The notes under the pieces: model-generated | Seen by the model: only the letters and a program-made list of their open reading frames with translations | The model's database searches: none | Told to the model about the DNA's origin: nothing | Made by a program: the position numbers and the translations under genes | DNA from: Ferrimonas sp. YFM | GTDB lineage: Bacteria > Pseudomonadota > Gammaproteobacteria > Enterobacterales > Shewanellaceae | DNA length: 64,000 nt | Assembly: GCF_030296015.1 (NCBI RefSeq) | Contig: NZ_AP027368.1 | Coordinates: forward strand, 1,612,001 to 1,676,000 | Reading direction: 5' to 3' | Part shown: positions 21,110 to 55,223 of the stretch, one piece after another | Layout of the letters: every line of letters begins with the position of its first letter | How positions within the stretch are numbered: the first letter of the stretch is position 1

Positions 21110-22024
21110 CTATGGTGGGCCAGTGAGCCGCTGTACCCAGAATGGCAGCCCCTGGGCCTTGAGAAAATGCTCTGCCTGCGCTCCCTGCAACATAGCCAGG
21201 GTGGCGATCAGGCCGGCATCGGTGCAGCGTTCGGCCTGAACGGTGACGCTGGAGGGGGCGTCAGTCACCGGGTGACCGGTTTTGGGATTGAGGATATGGC
21301 TGATTCGCTTGCCGTCCCTCATCAGAAAACGCTCGGCATCGCCACTGGTGGCGATGGCGCCCCGGCTCAGTGTCAGGGTGACCGGAGCCGCGTTACTGTT
21401 CACCGGGCTGATGCCAATGCGCCAGGGCAACTGGGTGGGGGAGGCGGCGATGTCGCCGCCAAAGTTCACCAGCAGCTCCAACTGGGGCCAGTGATGCCGA
21501 ATCAGGGCAAGTACCCTATCGACGGCGTACTCCTTGCCCAGGCCACCGAAGTCCAGTGCTGTGCCTGGGGCCAGGGTGACATTTTGTTGCTTCAAAACCA
21601 CCTTGTCCCAGCCGATCAGCGGCAGCAGGGCGGCGACCTGTTCAGGGCAGGGCAGTCGGTCGCTACCATCGAAGCGCCATACCCTGCCCAGCACGCCGCT
21701 GGTGATGTCAAACAGGCCATCGGAGAGGCGCCAGGCGGTCTCGGCCAGGGACAGCAGCTGATGGGTTTCCCGGTCTATGGAAGCCGGCCTACCCTGACTG
21801 TGGTTGAGACGATGGCAGACGCCGTCAGTGCGATAGCGGCTGAACTTGTGCTCGATGCGCAGGGTCTCTTGGGCAGCCAGCCCCAGCGCTTGCTGGGCCA
21901 GGGCGTGATCGCCGGTTCGAATCAGCAGTTCACAGCGGCAGGCCATGGCCTGGAAGTGGCCCCGATAGACACCAGGTTCAAGCTGAGTCAGGGTCAGGGC
22001 GGTTTTTTCGGCCAGGGTGGTCAT
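21110..22024 (-). CDS. apbE: FAD:protein FMN transferase (ApbE family), no signal peptide
   Basis: This 304-residue enzyme would move FMN from FAD to a Thr or Ser of a target protein. Typical blocks are visible: HKFSRYRTDGVCHRLN, FDITSGVLGRVWRF, ALDFGGLGKEYAVDR, NFGGDIAAS, AIATSGDAERF and HILNPKTGHPVTDAPSSVTV, then the metal-site region CTDAGLIATLAM. It starts at ATG 22024, sharing one base with the DUF3570 stop. Unlike most ApbE proteins it shows no signal peptide or lipobox, and no upstream extension supplies one. Its likely target is the DUF3570 barrel encoded next to it (motif DVLTGAS). A second ApbE is at 54162. Confidence 0.88.
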   Translation of the reverse strand: MTTLAEKTALTLTQLEPGVYRGHFQAMACRCELLIRTGDHALAQQALGLAAQETLRIEHKFSRYRTDGVCHRLNHSQGRPASIDRETHQLLSLAETAWRLSDGLFDITSGVLGRVWRFDGSDRLPCPEQVAALLPLIGWDKVVLKQQNVTLAPGTALDFGGLGKEYAVDRVLALIRHHWPQLELLVNFGGDIAASPTQLPWRIGISPVNSNAAPVTLTLSRGAIATSGDAERFLMRDGKRISHILNPKTGHPVTDAPSSVTVQAERCTDAGLIATLAMLQGAQAEHFLKAQGLPFWVQRLTGPP

Positions 22025-23298
22025 CAGAAGTGGTAGCTGGTTTGCAGCATTAGGGTGTTGAGGCTGGGGTAGAGATCCAGGTCTTTTAGCTGACCTGGCT
22101 CGGCCTTGCCGATGGATTGCGGCGCCTGATGGTACCACTGAAGGCGGATGGCCATGCGGTGGCCAGTGGTCATACGGTAGCCATATTTCAGTCCGAGGGT
22201 GTAGGTGTCCAGCTCTCCCAAACGGTAATCGGCACTGGCGTATTTGGGGGATTCTCCCTCCAGCAGGAAAGGCTGGTAGAACTCGGTGGCGCTCTGGGTG
22301 TAGTAACGCAGGTTGGGCTCCAGGCTGTGGGGGCCGAACTCAAACAGCAGCCGGGCATTGAGGGTGTGGGAGTCCACCTCCCAGTCGTCGCTCATGAAGC
22401 GGTAGCTGAGGTCGAGGATGGGACCAAAATGGTATTTGGCCTGACCGAAGAATCCCCATTTGTTGCGGCGATCCGGTCTGGACTCATAGAGGTAGTGCTG
22501 AGCTTCTCCCAGGTCGTTGACCACAGACAGCACCTTGATGAAGTCGTTCTGATACCCCTCCACCTGGGCATAGGTCAGGGTGCCCTGAACTATCAGTTGC
22601 CGGTTAATCACCTGGCTGAGGCTGGCGCGCAGATCCCAGGTGGTCTTGGTGTCGTCGCTGTCGCCGCGGGTGGCGTCAAACGCCTGCTGGAACGCCTCTT
22701 CGCTGGGGAAATCCTTGCGGATGGCCATGGTGCTCAGGGGAACCGGCACCCGTCCTTCAGGCTCAACGGTGTCATAGAAGAGCGAGCCTCCCAGGGCAAG
22801 CTGGGTGTTCTTCTGATTGAAGTCCCGGGTGAGACCGCCATTGATCCCCAGAGACAGATAGTCGTACTCCTTGGAGAGGTGCAGCCCAGTGGTGTAGCCC
22901 ATGGCCTGGTTCAGGGGGCTGGTCCACTGCAGGTTGACCTGGGCGCGGGTGTCTTTGAAGGTGTCGTCCAGGGGCGTCTCTCCCGGGGCGACCTGATACT
23001 CCCCTTTGCCTGAGGGCCGGGTAAAGGTCTGGGGGGTGAGTTGCGGCGCCGCGCCGTTGGGCGAGGCGCCGGTCAGCACATCCAAGGTGCCGGTGAGCAC
23101 CAGAATCTGGTCATCGGCGTTGGTGCGGGTCGCCTGCAGCACCCCTTCATAGGCATCGACTCGGTCGTCTCCTTCGCTGTAGTAGAGGAAGGCGGCGTCA
23201 AAGTTCCACTCCGGCTCAAACAGGGGCTCCTGAGCCTGCACCTGGCTCAGAGGCAGAGTGGCGGCGGCCAGGGCGGCGGTGATGTTGCCTAGTTGCAC
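22024..23298 (-). CDS. DUF3570 outer-membrane beta-barrel protein with ApbE-type motif
   Basis: This 424-residue protein has an N-terminal signal peptide (cleavage after AQA, near residue 22), many amphipathic strands rich in alternating aromatic residues, and a C-terminal phenylalanine (QTSYHF), all typical of an outer-membrane barrel. It matches DUF3570. The loop after the second strand has D73-V-L-T-G-A-S79 followed by PNG, which fits the flavin-attachment pattern D-x-x-(S/T)-G-A-(S/T), with Ser79 the expected acceptor. It overlaps the DUF4266 stop by 10 bp and touches apbE by one base. Covalent FMN here is a prediction. Confidence 0.85.
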   Translation of the reverse strand: MQLGNITAALAAATLPLSQVQAQEPLFEPEWNFDAAFLYYSEGDDRVDAYEGVLQATRTNADDQILVLTGTLDVLTGASPNGAAPQLTPQTFTRPSGKGEYQVAPGETPLDDTFKDTRAQVNLQWTSPLNQAMGYTTGLHLSKEYDYLSLGINGGLTRDFNQKNTQLALGGSLFYDTVEPEGRVPVPLSTMAIRKDFPSEEAFQQAFDATRGDSDDTKTTWDLRASLSQVINRQLIVQGTLTYAQVEGYQNDFIKVLSVVNDLGEAQHYLYESRPDRRNKWGFFGQAKYHFGPILDLSYRFMSDDWEVDSHTLNARLLFEFGPHSLEPNLRYYTQSATEFYQPFLLEGESPKYASADYRLGELDTYTLGLKYGYRMTTGHRMAIRLQWYHQAPQSIGKAEPGQLKDLDLYPSLNTLMLQTSYHF

Positions 23299-23501
23299 CC
23301 GCAGCCTCCACCCGCACTGCCACTGCCGCCATTGGTGGCTTCCTTACTGAAATAGACATGGTCGTCGAAGGACTTGTCCAGGGCATCGGCTTCAAGGGCC
23401 ATGGCCGGATGAGCCAGCAGGTCGCGCTCCCAGGGTTTGACACCCATGGAGCTGCATCCGGTGAGGGCGAGCAGCAGCATCAGGGTTAAGGCCTGTCTCA
23501 C
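23289..23501 (-). CDS. DUF4266 small lipoprotein with Cys/Gly-rich end
   Basis: This 70-residue protein begins with a lipoprotein signal (MRQALTLMLLLALTGC, lipid Cys16). The mature part contains the DUF4266 signature VKPWERDLLAHPAM followed by acidic residues and HVYFSKEATNGGSG. It ends in GGGCGCN, a C-x-C pair after a glycine stretch that could bind a metal or form a disulfide. The GTG start overlaps the tlpA-like stop by 4 bp, and its end overlaps the DUF3570 start. Its function is unknown; the tight overlaps show it belongs to this operon. Confidence 0.88.
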   Translation of the reverse strand: MRQALTLMLLLALTGCSSMGVKPWERDLLAHPAMALEADALDKSFDDHVYFSKEATNGGSGSAGGGCGCN

Positions 23502-23986
23502 TGGGCTTCTCCACTGCCTTGGTTGATCAGATTGTCCAGGGTGGCTCTGGTGGCGTCGGCATCCTTGGGGCGAAAGCCCACATGGGTCTGGATGATGATG
23601 CCGTCCTGGATCAGGTAGCTGCTGGGCATGCCTCCGACCCCATAGGCGTCCGCCAGGGCAAACTCAGGGTCATAGACGATGGGGAAATCGGCGGGGAACT
23701 GTTGCAGAAATTTGGCGGCGTCCGCTTTGTCCACGTCCAGGTTGATTGCCACCACGGTCACGCCTTTGGGGCCAAAATCCTTGAGGAGCTGATTCATAAA
23801 GGGAAAGGAACGGCGACAGGGGCCACACCAGGATGCCCAGAAGTCCACGTAGACTGGCCCCTCCTTGCTCAGCTCCACCATGGAGCGGCTCTGACCGGCC
23901 ACCTCTATCTGAAAATCCGGTGCCGGGCGGGCAGCGAGCTGCGCGCAGGGCAACAGCAGCAATAGGGTGAGAAAAATAGTGCGCAT
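23498..23986 (-). CDS. TlpA/ResA-like periplasmic thioredoxin
   Basis: This 162-residue exported thiol-disulfide protein has a signal peptide (MRTIFLTLLLLLPCAQLAA) and active site W-C-G-P-C in VDFWASWCGPCRRSFPFM. The cis-proline loop reads GVGGMPSSYLI. It would keep cysteines of an envelope protein reduced or paired; the C-x-C of the neighbouring DUF4266 lipoprotein is an obvious candidate, by inference. I chose ATG 23986, preceded by AAGGA, which places the signal peptide correctly. It is the first gene of the tlpA-like / DUF4266 / DUF3570 / apbE operon. Confidence 0.9.
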   Translation of the reverse strand: MRTIFLTLLLLLPCAQLAARPAPDFQIEVAGQSRSMVELSKEGPVYVDFWASWCGPCRRSFPFMNQLLKDFGPKGVTVVAINLDVDKADAAKFLQQFPADFPIVYDPEFALADAYGVGGMPSSYLIQDGIIIQTHVGFRPKDADATRATLDNLINQGSGEAQ

Positions 23987-24146
23987 CGTCAGTCCTTGGT
24001 ATTCGCAGTCTGATTCCATCATGGCACATCTGCACTGGGGGTAAAGGGGAAAACGTGGCTTGGGCTAGAGTGAAGCAAGGGGAAGTGTCTATACTGAAAC
24101 AGCAAGATAAACAGTCACCTTGACAAAAATCGCAGGGAGCGAGTCT

Positions 24147-25007
24147 ATGGTCTGGTATCGATTTTCTCACCGGCTGCTGGTCAGCCTGATGCTGGTATGG
24201 GTTACTTGTTCAGTGGAAGCGGCCACCGCACTGGATCCTCAGACCCTGTCACTCTGGCAGCGCCAGGGAATCCCGGTTCAACTGCTCGATGCCCGGCCTC
24301 ACCAGGCCTACCTGCAGGGACATCGTCAGGGGGCCATCAGTTTCGACGTTGAGGAAACCTACCGACAGGATCAGGGCGTGTGGCTGGCCAAGTCCATCTC
24401 TGCCATGACTCAGGAGATCCGCCAGCGCGGACTGGCTCTGGGTCAAACCATAGTGGTGTATGACGACGGCTTGCTGATGGATGCGGCTCGGCTGGCCTGG
24501 GTGCTGGAGCTTTACGGTTTAACCCAGGTCCACATTTTGGTGGACTCTCTGGAGAGCGCCAAACTCAACAAGGAGCCGGTGACCCCAAGGCCGTCGAGTT
24601 ATGTGCCTGCCCTGAACCCGGATGTGCTGATCAACGCCAGAATGACTTTGCTGGCGGGACATAACCCCAGTTTTGGCATTGTCGATATACGGGGCGAGGA
24701 TCACTATTTGGGAAAGGCCTCGGAAACCAAAAAATTTGGCCACATCCCCGGCGCCATCAACATCCCCATGGACAACTTCTTTTATCGTGATGACAACAAC
24801 ACGCCGCAGCTGCGCAGTTGGGGAGAGCTGATGTCGCTGTTTCAGGGGCTGGACCCCGGCAAGCGCTACATCACCTATTGCTACAAGGGAAAGGCGTCCA
24901 CTTTGGGTTATTTCCTGATGCAACAGGCCGGACTTCAGGTGACCCACTATGACGGTTCCTGGCTGGACTGGTCACAGCGGGATATGCCGGTGGAGAGGCC
25001 GGAATGA
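24147..25007 (+). CDS. Exported two-domain rhodanese-type sulfurtransferase
   Basis: This 286-residue protein has an N-terminal signal peptide or anchor (LLVSLMLVWVTCSVEA) and two rhodanese domains. The first (about residues 30-130) has no catalytic cysteine (VVYDDGLLMDA). The second carries Cys245 in TYCYKGKAST, the persulfide-forming loop. It would act in the periplasm on thiosulfate or another sulfur donor. ATG 24147 follows AGGGAG. The next gene, a hybrid kinase, starts inside the last codons (ATGA), so the two are coupled; a sensing link is inferred. Confidence 0.85.
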   Translation: MVWYRFSHRLLVSLMLVWVTCSVEAATALDPQTLSLWQRQGIPVQLLDARPHQAYLQGHRQGAISFDVEETYRQDQGVWLAKSISAMTQEIRQRGLALGQTIVVYDDGLLMDAARLAWVLELYGLTQVHILVDSLESAKLNKEPVTPRPSSYVPALNPDVLINARMTLLAGHNPSFGIVDIRGEDHYLGKASETKKFGHIPGAINIPMDNFFYRDDNNTPQLRSWGELMSLFQGLDPGKRYITYCYKGKASTLGYFLMQQAGLQVTHYDGSWLDWSQRDMPVERPE

Positions 25008-26860
25008 TTCGCCAGTCCCTGACCCAGAGACTCAACCTGGCCATCTTTGCGGTGATGGTTCTGTTGGCGTTTGTCATCAGTGCCTGGAGCTACAAGGTGG
25101 ATCTGCAGACCATGCGGGCACATTACTCAGGAGTGGCAGGCAGTCTGGCACCTACCATGATTGAGCTGGTGGTGCTGGATCAGCCGGAGACGGTGACCGA
25201 ATTCAATCGTCAGCTGCGTAACTTTCCCCAGCTTAGGGGCCTGACCCTGATGACTCTGGAGGGGGAGGTGCGTTACGAGTATCGCCGTCAGGATACTGCC
25301 TCGGCTTGCCCTCAGGAGATAAGCTGGCTGGCGCCCTTGATGGACGGTTGCATGGTGATTCGCCAGCAGCTGGAGTTTGAGTCGGCCCAGTGGCTGGATT
25401 ACGCCATGGAAGTGGACACCCGTGAGTTGCAAGCACAGATCTTCCAGCAGGCCCTGATGGTGGTGATGGGCACCCTGTTCTGTTTTGGGCTTATCTATCG
25501 CAGCATTCGTCGCTGGGTGAAAAAGCCGGTGGACGAATTGGTGGCCGGCTTGCCGCTGATGGGCACAGGCCAGGTCGATTTCCCCTATGCCGGCGTGCAT
25601 CGCAGTGAGCTGGCCATGCTGGCGCGCACCCTGGAGCAGAGTGACCGGCAACTTTTCGAACGTCAGCAGCAGGCCACCGAGCTCAATAGCCGGCTTGAAG
25701 CCTCTCTCCAGGCCAAGAGCGACTTCCTGGCCAATGCCAGCCATGAAATTCGCACGCCGCTGAATGCGGTCACCGGTTTTATCGAGTGCCTGGAGGCCCA
25801 GCGTACCCGCCTGACCCCAGAAGGGCAGGAGCAACTGCAGCTGTTGCAGGGGGCCTCGCAGAGTTTGCTGCACATCGTTAACGATGTGCTGGACTTTTCC
25901 CGCCTGGAGGCGGGAGAACTGAAACTGGATCCTCAGCCGGGCTGTCCCTCCGACTTTCTGCAGCGGGTCCATGCCCACTATCAGGGGATGGCGCGATTGC
26001 ATAAGGTGGCGTTTGGTCTCTGTCTGGCCCCCGAATTGCCCCCCAGGTTGGTGATGGACGAAGGTCGACTGGAGCAGATCCTCGGCAACCTGCTCACCAA
26101 TGCCATCAAGTTCTCCCCGGGCGGCCAGGTTGAGCTTAAGGCCAGGGTCCAGTCCCGGGATGAATGCAGTTGTAAGCTGGCGATCTCCGTCGAGGATACC
26201 GGCATCGGCATCGAGCCTCACAAGCTGGCGGGGATCTTCGACGCCTATACCCAGGCGGACGGCTCTGTGACCCGCCGCTTCGGTGGCACCGGCCTGGGGT
26301 TGGCCATCTGCAAACGCCTGTCGCTGCTGATGCAGGCGAACCTTGAAGTGGAGTCTGAGCCCGGGCAGGGCAGCCGATTCACCCTGACTCTGTCTTTGCC
26401 GCTGAGCGAAACAGGCACCAGAAGTCAGGCAGATGACGCCATCGGGCGGGATGAGCGTCCCCTGCAGGGGGCCAGGGTGCTGTTGGCAGAAGACAACATC
26501 AGCAACCAGAAGCTGATGCAGATTATGCTCAAGCGGCTGGGCTGTGATGCTCTCACTGTGGCCTCCAATGGCCAGCAGGCGGTGGATGCCTGCCAGAGGG
26601 AGAGTTTTGATCTGGTGCTGATGGATTGCCAGATGCCGGTAATGGATGGCTATCGGGCCACCCGGCAAATTCGCCTGGGGCCCTCGGCTGACACCCTGAT
26701 TCTGGCGCTGACCGCCAATGCCACCGAGGATGACAGGCAGAAGTGTCTGGACAGTGGCATGGACGATTTTCTGGCCAAGCCCGTGACCCTGACAACATTG
26801 GGAGAGGGGATTGCTGCCGCCCGGCTGCGCCATGGCCGTTCAGCGGCGCGCATCTCCTAA
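25004..26860 (+). CDS. Hybrid sensor histidine kinase with receiver domain
   Basis: This 618-residue membrane kinase has a first helix (about 9-28), a periplasmic sensor of some 115 residues, a second helix (about 147-163), a linker with a short coiled coil, a HisKA domain with His247 in NASHEIRTPLNA, and an ATPase domain with NAIKFS, DTGIGI and GTGLGL boxes. The C-terminal receiver has Asp541 in LMDCQMPVMDG and Lys in FLAKP. It lacks an Hpt domain and an output domain, so it must pass phosphate to another protein not encoded here. The start overlaps the rhodanese stop by 4 bp. Confidence 0.92.
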   Translation: MIRQSLTQRLNLAIFAVMVLLAFVISAWSYKVDLQTMRAHYSGVAGSLAPTMIELVVLDQPETVTEFNRQLRNFPQLRGLTLMTLEGEVRYEYRRQDTASACPQEISWLAPLMDGCMVIRQQLEFESAQWLDYAMEVDTRELQAQIFQQALMVVMGTLFCFGLIYRSIRRWVKKPVDELVAGLPLMGTGQVDFPYAGVHRSELAMLARTLEQSDRQLFERQQQATELNSRLEASLQAKSDFLANASHEIRTPLNAVTGFIECLEAQRTRLTPEGQEQLQLLQGASQSLLHIVNDVLDFSRLEAGELKLDPQPGCPSDFLQRVHAHYQGMARLHKVAFGLCLAPELPPRLVMDEGRLEQILGNLLTNAIKFSPGGQVELKARVQSRDECSCKLAISVEDTGIGIEPHKLAGIFDAYTQADGSVTRRFGGTGLGLAICKRLSLLMQANLEVESEPGQGSRFTLTLSLPLSETGTRSQADDAIGRDERPLQGARVLLAEDNISNQKLMQIMLKRLGCDALTVASNGQQAVDACQRESFDLVLMDCQMPVMDGYRATRQIRLGPSADTLILALTANATEDDRQKCLDSGMDDFLAKPVTLTTLGEGIAAARLRHGRSAARIS

Positions 26861-52965: not shown

Positions 52966-54147
52966 TCAGCCCAGAGGGATGATGCTTTCCACCTTCAGGG
53001 TCAGGTTACAGGCACCCACCTGGCTCCAGTCGAGATCTTCCGGTTTGAATTCTTCGCCAATGCCGGCGCCGGGAACCGGAGTGGCCCAGTCAGGACCGAA
53101 CAGGCCGGTGCGGGTGTAGTCTGTGGTTACCAGGATACGGGCACCGCGGTTGCGGCTGTCCTCTTCCAGTCCGGTCTTGGTGAACTGGGCGGGGTCGTAC
53201 TCATAGTAGGAGAGGCGGGCTTCACCGTTCATGATCATGTTGTAGCAGGTGTTGTTCTTGCCGATAAACATGCTGGCGTAGTAATCGCCCTCAATCTCTT
53301 TGAGGCCAAAGCCGAAGGTGGCGATGTTGGGGGTTTCCACATCGACCCCCTCCTCCTGGAAGCGGTTGACCGTGGCCACCAGCTTGGCGCCGATGGCGTT
53401 GTCTTTCTGTTCGATGACGTAGGCTTTGCCGTCATCGGGGAACATCTCGGTCATGTGCTGGCGGTTGTCCATGGCACAGGCGGCCGCCAGGGCAGTGGCT
53501 CCGGTTTCCCCTTCAGCCGCTTCCTTCCAGCGGAAGTTGTGCACCTGGGCATCCAGCTGCGCCTGCAGCCATTGGGCGTTCAGGTAGGAGCCGCTGCCAT
53601 AGTAAGAGCTGCCGGAGGCGCCGGTCTTGCCATCTACCGCACCGAAGGCAAAGGCTGGTTGCTCGAAGGTGGGATCCGTCGGCTCGCCACTTGGGCCGCC
53701 AGGCTCAGTACCGCCGTCGTGGCCTTCGTGACAGGTGGCGCAGTCGCCGTAATCGCCATGAGGCGGCGTGACACCGGTGTCACCACTGCCATCGTAGGTG
53801 TGGCAGGAGAGGCAGTCGTCGTTGGCGGCGGCTGCGTGAGAGACCGTGGTTTTCACTTCGGCGTCGCCGCCGTTGGGGTCCACATAGTCGAAGTGGACAC
53901 CGGCCGCGGCGCACTGGGTCACGAAGTCATAAGGCTTGATGGGAGGGTTGTCCTTAAGGTCGTTCAGTTCCTGCTCCAGCGCCTGATTGGCGTCGGTCAG
54001 CTGGCTGTTCTCCTTTTCCAGGGCGGCAAGCTGAGCCTGGGTTTCCGGGTCGGGTTTGTAGATCACCTTGTCATCGTCATCACAGCCAGTGAGAGCCACT
54101 ACGGAGGCGCAGATAAGGGACAGCGCAAATTTACGTTTCATCATCAT
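52966..54147 (-). CDS. Diheme c-type lipoprotein with ApbE-type flavinylation motifs
   Basis: I do not recognise a named family. The 393-residue product has a lipoprotein signal (lipid Cys22 after VVALTG), a short coiled coil (about residues 34-67), two heme sites C112-L-S-C-H and C136-A-T-C-H, then a glycine-rich linker. Next come D172-G-K-T-G-A-S178, which matches the ApbE target pattern, and a weaker E-G-E-T-G-A-T at 212-218. The C-terminal 200 residues loosely suggest a flavin-binding split barrel (SMFIGKNNTCYNMIMNGEARLSYYEYD in part), but that is a guess. The apbE gene lies 14 bp upstream on the same strand, a strong hint of a modified redox protein. Confidence 0.82.
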   Translation of the reverse strand: MMMKRKFALSLICASVVALTGCDDDDKVIYKPDPETQAQLAALEKENSQLTDANQALEQELNDLKDNPPIKPYDFVTQCAAAGVHFDYVDPNGGDAEVKTTVSHAAAANDDCLSCHTYDGSGDTGVTPPHGDYGDCATCHEGHDGGTEPGGPSGEPTDPTFEQPAFAFGAVDGKTGASGSSYYGSGSYLNAQWLQAQLDAQVHNFRWKEAAEGETGATALAAACAMDNRQHMTEMFPDDGKAYVIEQKDNAIGAKLVATVNRFQEEGVDVETPNIATFGFGLKEIEGDYYASMFIGKNNTCYNMIMNGEARLSYYEYDPAQFTKTGLEEDSRNRGARILVTTDYTRTGLFGPDWATPVPGAGIGEEFKPEDLDWSQVGACNLTLKVESIIPLG

Positions 54148-54161
54148 TATTTCCCTGCGGG

Positions 54162-55223
54162 TTATAGCTCGGGCACTGAGGCCCGGTTGGTCTCGGCCTC
54201 GGGCCGAAGAAGTTGATTAAAGGCCTGGCTGCGGTGAACCCGGATCTGGCCAAAGTGATCTTCGATGAGCATCACCGCCAGTTGCTGCCGCTCCGCCAGG
54301 GCCAGGGTGTCCTTGACGCCCATTACCATGGCCGCAGTAGCCAGGCCATCAGCCGTGGTGCAGCTGGGGGCAATGACGGTGGCGGACACCACCTGGGTTT
54401 GCACCGCCCTGCCGGTTTTGGGATCGATAATGTGGGAGAAGCGGGTGCCCTGGCTTTCGAAATAGCGCCGATAGTCTCCAGAGGTGGCCACAGCCTGGTT
54501 ATTCAGGGCGATGCGGGTGGTATCGCTATAGCTGGCAGGCCTGGGGTTATCCACGCCCACAGTCCAGGGCCGCCCATCTGCCCTTGTGCCCCTGGCCATC
54601 ACTTCGCCGCCTATCTCCACCAGAAAGTGGTGGATGCCGCTCTCCTGAAGCAACTGACCCATGGCATCAACCCCATAGCCCTTGGCGATGGCCGACAGAT
54701 CCAGCCTGGTGCGCTCCCGGGTTTTGGTGAGTTCGTCTTGGTCGAGGGTGATGCTGTCGAGGCCGGTGTGAGCTCGCACTTCGGCGATCTCTTCATGGGT
54801 GGGCACTCGTCCGGGAAGCCCATAGGGGCCAAACCCCCACAGGTCGATAAGCGGGGCTATGGTGATGTCCAGGGCGCCGCCGGTAAGGCGCCCCAGGCGC
54901 ATCGCTTCGCGGATGACCTGATGCAGCTCAGCGGAGAGCTTCAAGGGGTGGCGGGCTGAAGCTTCATTGACCGCATTGATTTCGGAGTCGCTGCGCCAGG
55001 TCGACATGCTGGCATTGATCTTCTCCAGCCTGGCTTCCACCTTCAGGTGCAGTTGGTAGACCTCTTTGGCGCTAGTGGGGGCTGCCGACCAGGAGATGGC
55101 GTACTTGTTGCCCATGGTTTGCCCATAGAGGTGATAAACCTTGTGTTGCTGTTCCGCCACAGACCCATAAGAGGTCATTAGGAAGCTAATAAACATCAGA
55201 GATAAATAAAGCTGTCGGCGCAT
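54162..55223 (-). CDS. apbE: FAD:protein FMN transferase (ApbE family), exported
   Basis: This 353-residue flavin transferase has an N-terminal signal peptide (LYLSLMFISFLMTSYGSVA) and standard blocks: STWRSDSEINAVNEA, GGALDITIAPLIDLWGFGP, LDLSAIAKGYGVDAM, VEIGGEVMARG, AVATSGDYRRYF and HIIDPKTGRAVQTQVVSATVIA, then CTTADGLATAAMVMG. It should attach FMN to a periplasmic or surface protein. The diheme lipoprotein encoded 14 bp downstream, with a DGKTGAS motif, is the likely target. It differs clearly from the ApbE at 21110, which lacks a signal peptide. Confidence 0.92.
   Translation of the reverse strand: MRRQLYLSLMFISFLMTSYGSVAEQQHKVYHLYGQTMGNKYAISWSAAPTSAKEVYQLHLKVEARLEKINASMSTWRSDSEINAVNEASARHPLKLSAELHQVIREAMRLGRLTGGALDITIAPLIDLWGFGPYGLPGRVPTHEEIAEVRAHTGLDSITLDQDELTKTRERTRLDLSAIAKGYGVDAMGQLLQESGIHHFLVEIGGEVMARGTRADGRPWTVGVDNPRPASYSDTTRIALNNQAVATSGDYRRYFESQGTRFSHIIDPKTGRAVQTQVVSATVIAPSCTTADGLATAAMVMGVKDTLALAERQQLAVMLIEDHFGQIRVHRSQAFNQLLRPEAETNRASVPEL

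Follow-up and report, generated by a model that had tools for sequence, protein, structure and literature searches.

The stretch of DNA analysed here, 64,000 nucleotides of the Ferrimonas sp. YFM genome (4.66 Mb in a single contig) and referred to below as the window, contains a gene of the DUF3570 family whose product is very probably an outer-membrane barrel with a covalently bound flavin, while the enzyme dedicated to attaching that flavin seems, from its N-terminus, to stay inside the cell. The DUF3570 gene (22024..23298, minus strand; 424 amino acids, GTG start) belongs to a minus-strand run of four overlapping genes that encode, in order, a TlpA-like thioredoxin, a DUF4266 protein, DUF3570 and ApbE; the successive overlaps are 4 bases, 10 bases and 1 base. 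Family membership is clear from a profile match that spans the whole protein and exceeds the curated cut-off (PF12094.14, E 1.9e-144, profile positions 3-427 of 427; 482.1 bits, cut-off 25), and the best named matches to the protein are from Ferrimonas species, with up to 91% identity in F. futtsuensis. The last gene, apbE (21110..22024, minus strand), encodes an FAD:protein FMN transferase of 304 amino acids (PF02424, E 5e-59; FAD, flavin adenine dinucleotide; FMN, flavin mononucleotide), and the A of its ATG start at 22024 is the last base of the DUF3570 TGA stop codon. A preliminary description of this DNA had reported the barrel with its motif and the apbE gene overlapping its stop by one base, both of which stand; DUF4266 and the TlpA-like thioredoxin were missing from it.

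Flavinylation of DUF3570 is not in itself new, because it has been reported for a relative. When the Chlorobium luteolum DUF3570 was coexpressed with its cognate ApbE, flavinylation was seen by UV-visible detection, and only a protein with the serines replaced in both of its motifs lost it (Meheust et al., eLife 2021; PMC8238504, which like PMC12052999 is cited here from excerpts). The preliminary description had stated that no direct demonstration was known for the family, and this must be corrected. The same study places DUF3570 in clusters with a thioredoxin-like protein (PF13899) and DUF4266, and the cluster in the window has this membership, with DUF3570, ApbE, DUF4266 and a thioredoxin-like gene together. 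It was the only paper found on DUF3570, DUF4266 or PF12094 in a literature search whose scope stopped short of preprints and most subscription journals. The word 'barrel' is absent from the main texts of PMC8238504, PMC11334425 and PMC12052999, and no discussion of the place of flavin attachment or the final location of DUF3570 was found in the excerpts of PMC8238504.

The flavin motif and its association with apbE

The residues D73-V-L-T-G-A-S79, encoded at 23062..23082 (minus strand) within a conserved block, are the only match in the DUF3570 protein to D-x-x-[ST]-G-A-[ST], the target pattern of ApbE (PMC12052999), and they form the predicted attachment site, with FMN on Ser79. An equally strict motif appeared in 356 of 100,000 shuffles of the protein, a chance of about 0.4% before conservation is counted; on this ground and on the co-occurrence of motif and ApbE across 49 genes we reject a motif present by chance.

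These 49 DUF3570 genes, each counted once, comprise 47 from loci found with the DUF3570 profile and two from wider loci, the profile having matched in 22 of 40 relatives and in 29 of 398 genomes that sample the phylum broadly, Chlorobiota and Bacteroidota lying outside this sampling. Motif counts were limited to profile-found genes because a further set of 80 related loci, used below for other purposes, had been found by peptide patterns that include the motif itself. An ApbE was considered near when it lay in the flanks of about 1.5 kb around the DUF3570 match. Thirty genes have both the motif and a near ApbE, 12 have neither, 5 have the motif only and 2 the ApbE only. Hence the strict motif occurs in 30 of the 32 genes with a near ApbE, the two others reading DTLTGSS and ETMGGAS, and it is lacking in 12 of the 17 genes without one. 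Among the five genes with the motif only, one (L005) has a DUF3570-type ApbE (L168) on another contig of the same genome (G011), one (L038) is separated by 402 bases from the locus end, and three (L046, L141 and L142) belong to a sister DUF3570 type. The motif is therefore conserved where apbE is adjacent, yet apbE is adjacent in only 32 of the 49 genes; of the two properties that the preliminary description had proposed to check, conservation beside apbE was upheld and constant adjacency had to be rejected.

C. luteolum DUF3570 has two conserved [ST]GA[ST] motifs (PMC8238504) and the window protein (L001) has one: its motif is followed by SPNGAA, in which neither Ser nor Thr flanks GA. The residues N81-G-A-A84 (23047..23058, minus strand) form a degenerate second position that offers no acceptor hydroxyl, and it is a guess that they lie at the same place as the second C. 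luteolum motif. At this position the 80 related loci mostly have xGA with V, A or I as the next residue, and in a few cases T, and two [ST]GA[ST] motifs are present in four (L034, L035, L039 and L042) of 48 loci. Since the second position lacks a Ser or Thr acceptor, DUF3570 of the Ferrimonas group should carry one FMN. That Ser79 carries it is a prediction we make with high confidence; the reading of the barrel as an ApbE target, as first proposed, is supported by the flavinylated relative and by the occurrence of the motif beside apbE, and the barrel itself by the structural model described below.

The sister type consists of fifteen genes (L016-L023, L040, L044, L046-L048, L141 and L142), none with an ApbE in its 1.5-kb flanks, which read D-x-[VI]-[ST]-[SGN]-A-S at the place of the motif. 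That this sequence is kept without an adjacent apbE would be expected if the D-x-x-T-G-A-S block were primarily structural, as part of the barrel mouth, and carried no flavin in this organism, a reading we consider very improbable given that flavinylation has been demonstrated for a relative (PMC8238504), that motif and ApbE co-occur, and that ApbE is retained in the genome even when unlinked. In nine of the fifteen sister-type genomes an ApbE lies 6-23 kb away from DUF3570; of the six remaining genomes, three carry DUF3570 on a contig no longer than 20 kb. Seven sister-type ApbEs form a clade of their own (support 100/99); five of these have an export-like N-terminus (L164, L167, L170, L172 and L175) and two, L137 and L139, have no clear export segment, which would argue against all sister-type ApbEs being secreted. 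In 14 sister loci of 15-19 kb, not all of which extend to the ApbE, DUF3570 is the only frame of at least 120 amino acids with a motif-like site, except for DCSSNAT in one L129 protein. We would predict that the sister variant is flavinylated too.

The sister-type loci L129-L142 are larger loci with genes for ExbB-type, TPR, SH3 or outer-membrane and hydrazine-synthase-alpha-like proteins. At L131, Pfam identifies outer-membrane proteins, TPR proteins, an ExbB-type protein and a protein with a hydrazine-synthase-alpha-like domain, and L135 and L140 resemble this locus by eye.

Modelled barrel fold and predicted orientation

The DUF3570 protein begins with a weak Sec-type signal peptide, judged by eye to span about residues 1-22, and AlphaFold2, run with 49 sequences, models the mature chain as a barrel of 16 strands (predicted local distance difference test score, pLDDT, 94.9; predicted template modelling score, pTM, 0.87). 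The best Foldseek matches to the model are FadL, TonB-dependent receptors and OmpG, while those of VIA-align are BamA, polysaccharide-export barrels, CymA and OmpG. The BamA match (model entry 9a2o) runs from end to end, with residues 5-402 placed onto 420-810 (Z 21.8, root-mean-square deviation 3.7, 285 residues aligned). With an even number of strands and barrels as its structural neighbours, DUF3570 almost certainly sits in the outer membrane.

In the model, turns after even strands are 2-5 residues long and the long loops (39, 37, 28, 26 and 18 residues) all follow odd strands. The flavin motif forms the end of strand 3 and the start of the 39-residue loop, which begins G-A-S, and not a loop after the second strand, where it had first been placed. 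Both termini of outer-membrane barrels face the periplasm, and by this general rule the 39-residue loop would be extracellular. The outer loops of a barrel are usually its variable side. Among 33 profile-found DUF3570 sequences of the motif-bearing or ApbE-linked type, 17 positions reach at least 4.0 bits (Y18, E20, D51, G55, D94, R96, S120, E122, D124, G226, R252, P253, D282, Q313, F318, D335 and R337, in mature numbering), and all 17 lie on the outer rim, at the ends of odd strands, the starts of even strands or in the loops between them. Seven of the eight predicted outer loops are conserved above the strand mean, and six of the seven predicted periplasmic turns below it. On the strength of this model we think it likely that the flavin site is at the extracellular mouth of the barrel.

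Partner genes

The DUF4266 gene (23289..23501, minus strand; PF14086, E 3.9e-23) encodes a lipoprotein of 70 amino acids with an LTGC lipobox, recognised by eye, and a tail ending in GGGCGCN. The TlpA-like thioredoxin (23498..23986, minus strand) has a signal-like N-terminus and a WCGPC motif and matches PF08534, PF00578, PF00085 and PF13905; PF13899 is not among the matches listed for it, which are to the Redoxin, AhpC-TSA and Thioredoxin models. Across the 80 related loci DUF4266 is present in all 80, TlpA within 4 kb in 68 and ApbE in 73. The C-terminal CxC of DUF4266 is found in 128 of 128 loci, in 125 of them as GGGCGCN, some genes being counted twice, and part of this constancy may come from the overlap with the start of DUF3570. 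We claim no fold for DUF4266 because its structure model has low confidence (pLDDT 58.9, with tail residues 41-55 under 50).

Within 6 kb of the cluster, 22 of the 80 loci carry a cupredoxin, a membrane protein of about 265 amino acids and a protein of about 250 amino acids that appears outer-membrane-like by eye. In one of them (L056:12212-16009, plus strand) a response regulator, a histidine kinase, a cupredoxin tested against Pfam, the membrane protein of about 265 amino acids and a possible outer-membrane protein lie beside the cluster. The membrane protein was considered as an FTR1-type iron permease, a candidate dropped after no Pfam FTR1 match was obtained in L056 or L122. At L032 (1390-4125, plus strand) a protein of 912 amino acids combines DUF3570 (residues 38-550) with a Met- and His-rich extension of about 360 residues; as a clue to function this fusion was set aside, since the extension gave no informative Pfam match. 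In L143 and L144 a NUDIX-like gene, recognised by eye, stands between TlpA and DUF4266.

The cognate ApbE and the probable place of attachment

Neither a lipobox nor a hydrophobic export segment is present in the window ApbE, which starts MTTLAEKTALTLTQLEPG and whose highest 12-residue hydropathy is 0.56. Here and below, an N-terminus is called export-like by a home-made rule based on 12-residue hydropathy with a threshold of 1.8, which is not a signal-peptide predictor, and by this rule the window ApbE has no export signal. Nor do its counterparts, for the most part: of 104 loci that encode a DUF3570-type ApbE (95 distinct N-termini; L032, whose ApbE runs off the end of the locus, was left out), 2 have an export-like N-terminus, with or without a limit on upstream starts, and both of these (L077 and L097) score from starts inside the end of DUF3570. 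At a threshold of 1.4 the count is 2 of 104, or 3 of 104 without the start limit. Among the matches listed, the other ApbEs from genomes that hold DUF3570 are export-like in 42 of 44 cases (L165 and L177 failed), the two sets having been scored with different domain-start anchors. These 44 include five linked to the sister type and exclude L168, which is DUF3570-type but unlinked, and the linked L162, L173, L176, L201 and L202.

In a midpoint-rooted tree of 73 ApbEs, built without L034 and L177 and with a bootstrap that had not settled (correlation 0.961), all 41 DUF3570-linked ApbEs fall in one clade with support 100/100, which holds one further row, L215. The L215 ApbE is one gene away from a second DUF3570 (L215:2895-3834, minus strand; E 2e-46, with SGAS) that is cut by the locus end and belongs to the same genome as L110. 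Where loci lack an adjacent ApbE, six of seven have one of E 1.1e-74 or better elsewhere in the genome, and the seventh (G429) has only a weak partial match. Because the linked ApbEs have no export-like N-terminus and form one clade, attachment would probably precede export, unless a secreted ApbE performs it; on balance we favour attachment of FMN by the cognate ApbE in the cytosol, by a modest margin of confidence. The cytosolic ApbEs described in PMC12052999 are the one from Klebsiella, which has a soluble substrate, and eukaryotic ones.

A proposed mechanism

That the four genes together encode a small redox unit in the cell envelope is the best overall explanation we can offer, and we give it an even chance. 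Sequence and model show the cluster, the motif, the barrel fold, the missing export signal of ApbE and the Cys-Gly-Cys tail, and the covalent flavin has been shown by others for a relative. We infer the time and place of attachment, the side of the membrane, the path and direction of electrons and the acceptor as follows. Synthesised in the cytosol from the gene that follows and overlaps DUF3570, ApbE would move FMN from cytosolic FAD onto Ser79 of the unfolded DUF3570 precursor, after which Sec and the BAM machinery (beta-barrel assembly machinery) would export and fold the FMN-bearing protein, so that the flavin would end at the extracellular barrel mouth, close to the conserved polar residues that form a ring there. 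In the periplasm, the TlpA-like thioredoxin would reduce the C-terminal Cys-Gly-Cys of the DUF4266 lipoprotein, whose flexible, glycine-rich tail would pass electrons to the flavin, and the flavin would in turn reduce an acceptor outside the cell, for which a metal such as Fe(III) is the most plausible candidate. The relay from TlpA through Cys-Gly-Cys and FMN to an outside acceptor is put forward tentatively. Still more doubtful is the full combination, a haem-free path in which a cytosolic ApbE loads the cofactor before Sec and a surface flavin is reduced through the barrel by a thioredoxin-driven Cys-Gly-Cys tail.

Several observations speak against this scheme. The C. luteolum test followed 'a similar cloning strategy' to one in which both signal peptides were removed (PMC8238504); it is therefore silent on the place of attachment, and it may imply a signal peptide on the C. 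luteolum ApbE. The hydropathy rule is weak for weak signals: the N-termini of DUF3570 itself, necessarily export signals, pass it in 23 of 80 cases at 1.8 and 58 of 80 at 1.4. The genome has four further ApbEs (L158-L161), all with export-like N-termini, which could act in the periplasm. The side of the 39-residue loop rests on the general rule for barrel termini, and the loop may either fold into the lumen or stand outside. DsbD could supply electrons, but its only match in the genome (DsbD_TM) lies about 2.4 Mb from the cluster, which itself has no dsbD. Electron transfer through the barrel by the Cys-Gly-Cys tail is a proposal.

The four further ApbEs also bear on the possibility that DUF3570 is modified in the periplasm after export, either by a secreted ApbE or by the cognate ApbE exported through a cryptic route. 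The export-like N-termini of the five ApbEs linked to the sister type would fit this, as would the Klebsiella case, in which location sets specificity and an ApbE without a signal serves a soluble cytosolic fumarate reductase (PMC12052999). We nonetheless regard periplasmic modification as unlikely, given that the cognate ApbEs form a clade of their own that goes with DUF3570, whether adjacent or elsewhere in the genome, that 102 of the 104 loci have no export-like segment, and that the one-base overlap of DUF3570 and apbE suggests coupled synthesis.

The constancy of the CxC tail invites another interpretation, in which the flavin acts as a thiol oxidase instead of a reductase and the cluster serves to make disulfides: FMN would take electrons from the Cys-Gly-Cys of DUF4266 and pass them to oxygen or another outside acceptor. 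In yeast Erv2 a Cys-Gly-Cys on a flexible tail acts as the shuttle, and the CxC in every DUF4266 locus would suit such a thiol oxidase. TlpA-like proteins are usually reductants, which argues against it, and the 227 DsbD clusters that hold DUF3570 point to outward reduction, though 316 similar clusters are without DsbD (PMC8238504). A thiol oxidase appears improbable to us.

Were the cognate ApbE indeed cytosolic, FMN would have to travel through the Sec channel attached to an unfolded protein, and the substrate would need no exported FAD. Were the flavin at the outer mouth, the cluster would provide bacteria with a simple, haem-free means of reducing metals outside the cell.

Neighbouring genes and a second protein with an ApbE motif

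Divergent from the cluster, and of interest as context only, are genes for a rhodanese-domain protein (24120..25007, plus strand; PF00581) and a hybrid histidine kinase (25004..26860, plus strand); a similar kinase adjoins the cluster in L050 and L051.

Elsewhere in the window (52966-54147, minus strand) is a gene for a lipoprotein of 393 amino acids in which a strict ApbE motif, D-G-K-T-G-A-S, accompanies two CxxCH haem motifs; the gene is adjoined by another apbE (54162-55223, minus strand) whose product has an export-like N-terminus. The lipoprotein has weak Pfam matches only, below the cut-off, and is present in 7 of 30 genomes searched, the window's own included. Of eight copies retrieved, six combine the strict motif with two CxxCH, a seventh has the haem motifs alone, and the eighth escaped automatic recognition. 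Judged by these motifs, it may be an electron carrier that combines haem with covalent flavin.

Comparison with known systems

The closest analogues are the C. luteolum DUF3570 with its ApbE and the clusters of DUF3570, a thioredoxin-like protein and DUF4266 in the same study (PMC8238504), which share the combination of DUF3570, ApbE, DUF4266 and a thioredoxin-fold protein, the type of motif and the CxC of DUF4266. They differ in having two [ST]GA[ST] motifs where the window protein has one strict motif, and the cluster in the window further differs from those in that study in a thioredoxin without a listed PF13899 match, an unlinked DsbD and an ApbE without an export-like N-terminus. With ApbE substrates of the NqrC/RnfG type (PMC12052999), DUF3570 shares a predicted FMN phosphoester on the Ser or Thr of D-x-x-[ST]-G-A-[ST]; in those proteins the flavin-bearing domain is at the inner membrane, whereas DUF3570 is predicted to be an outer-membrane beta-barrel served by a cytosolic ApbE. 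The Klebsiella pneumoniae system, a cytosolic ApbE with a soluble fumarate reductase (cited in PMC12052999), likewise has an ApbE without a signal peptide, but its substrate stays in the cytosol while DUF3570 would be exported to the outer membrane. What looks new here is the pairing of a dedicated flavin-attaching enzyme that is apparently intracellular with a flavin site predicted at the mouth of a barrel on the cell surface.

In MtrB-type porin-cytochrome conduits a barrel carries electrons across the outer membrane. Should our proposal be right, DUF3570 would resemble these in using a barrel as an outer-membrane electron path, although we claim no membership of that group; in place of haem it would have flavin, its modelled barrel has 16 strands, and its partner is a small lipoprotein with a Cys-Gly-Cys tail instead of a decahaem cytochrome.

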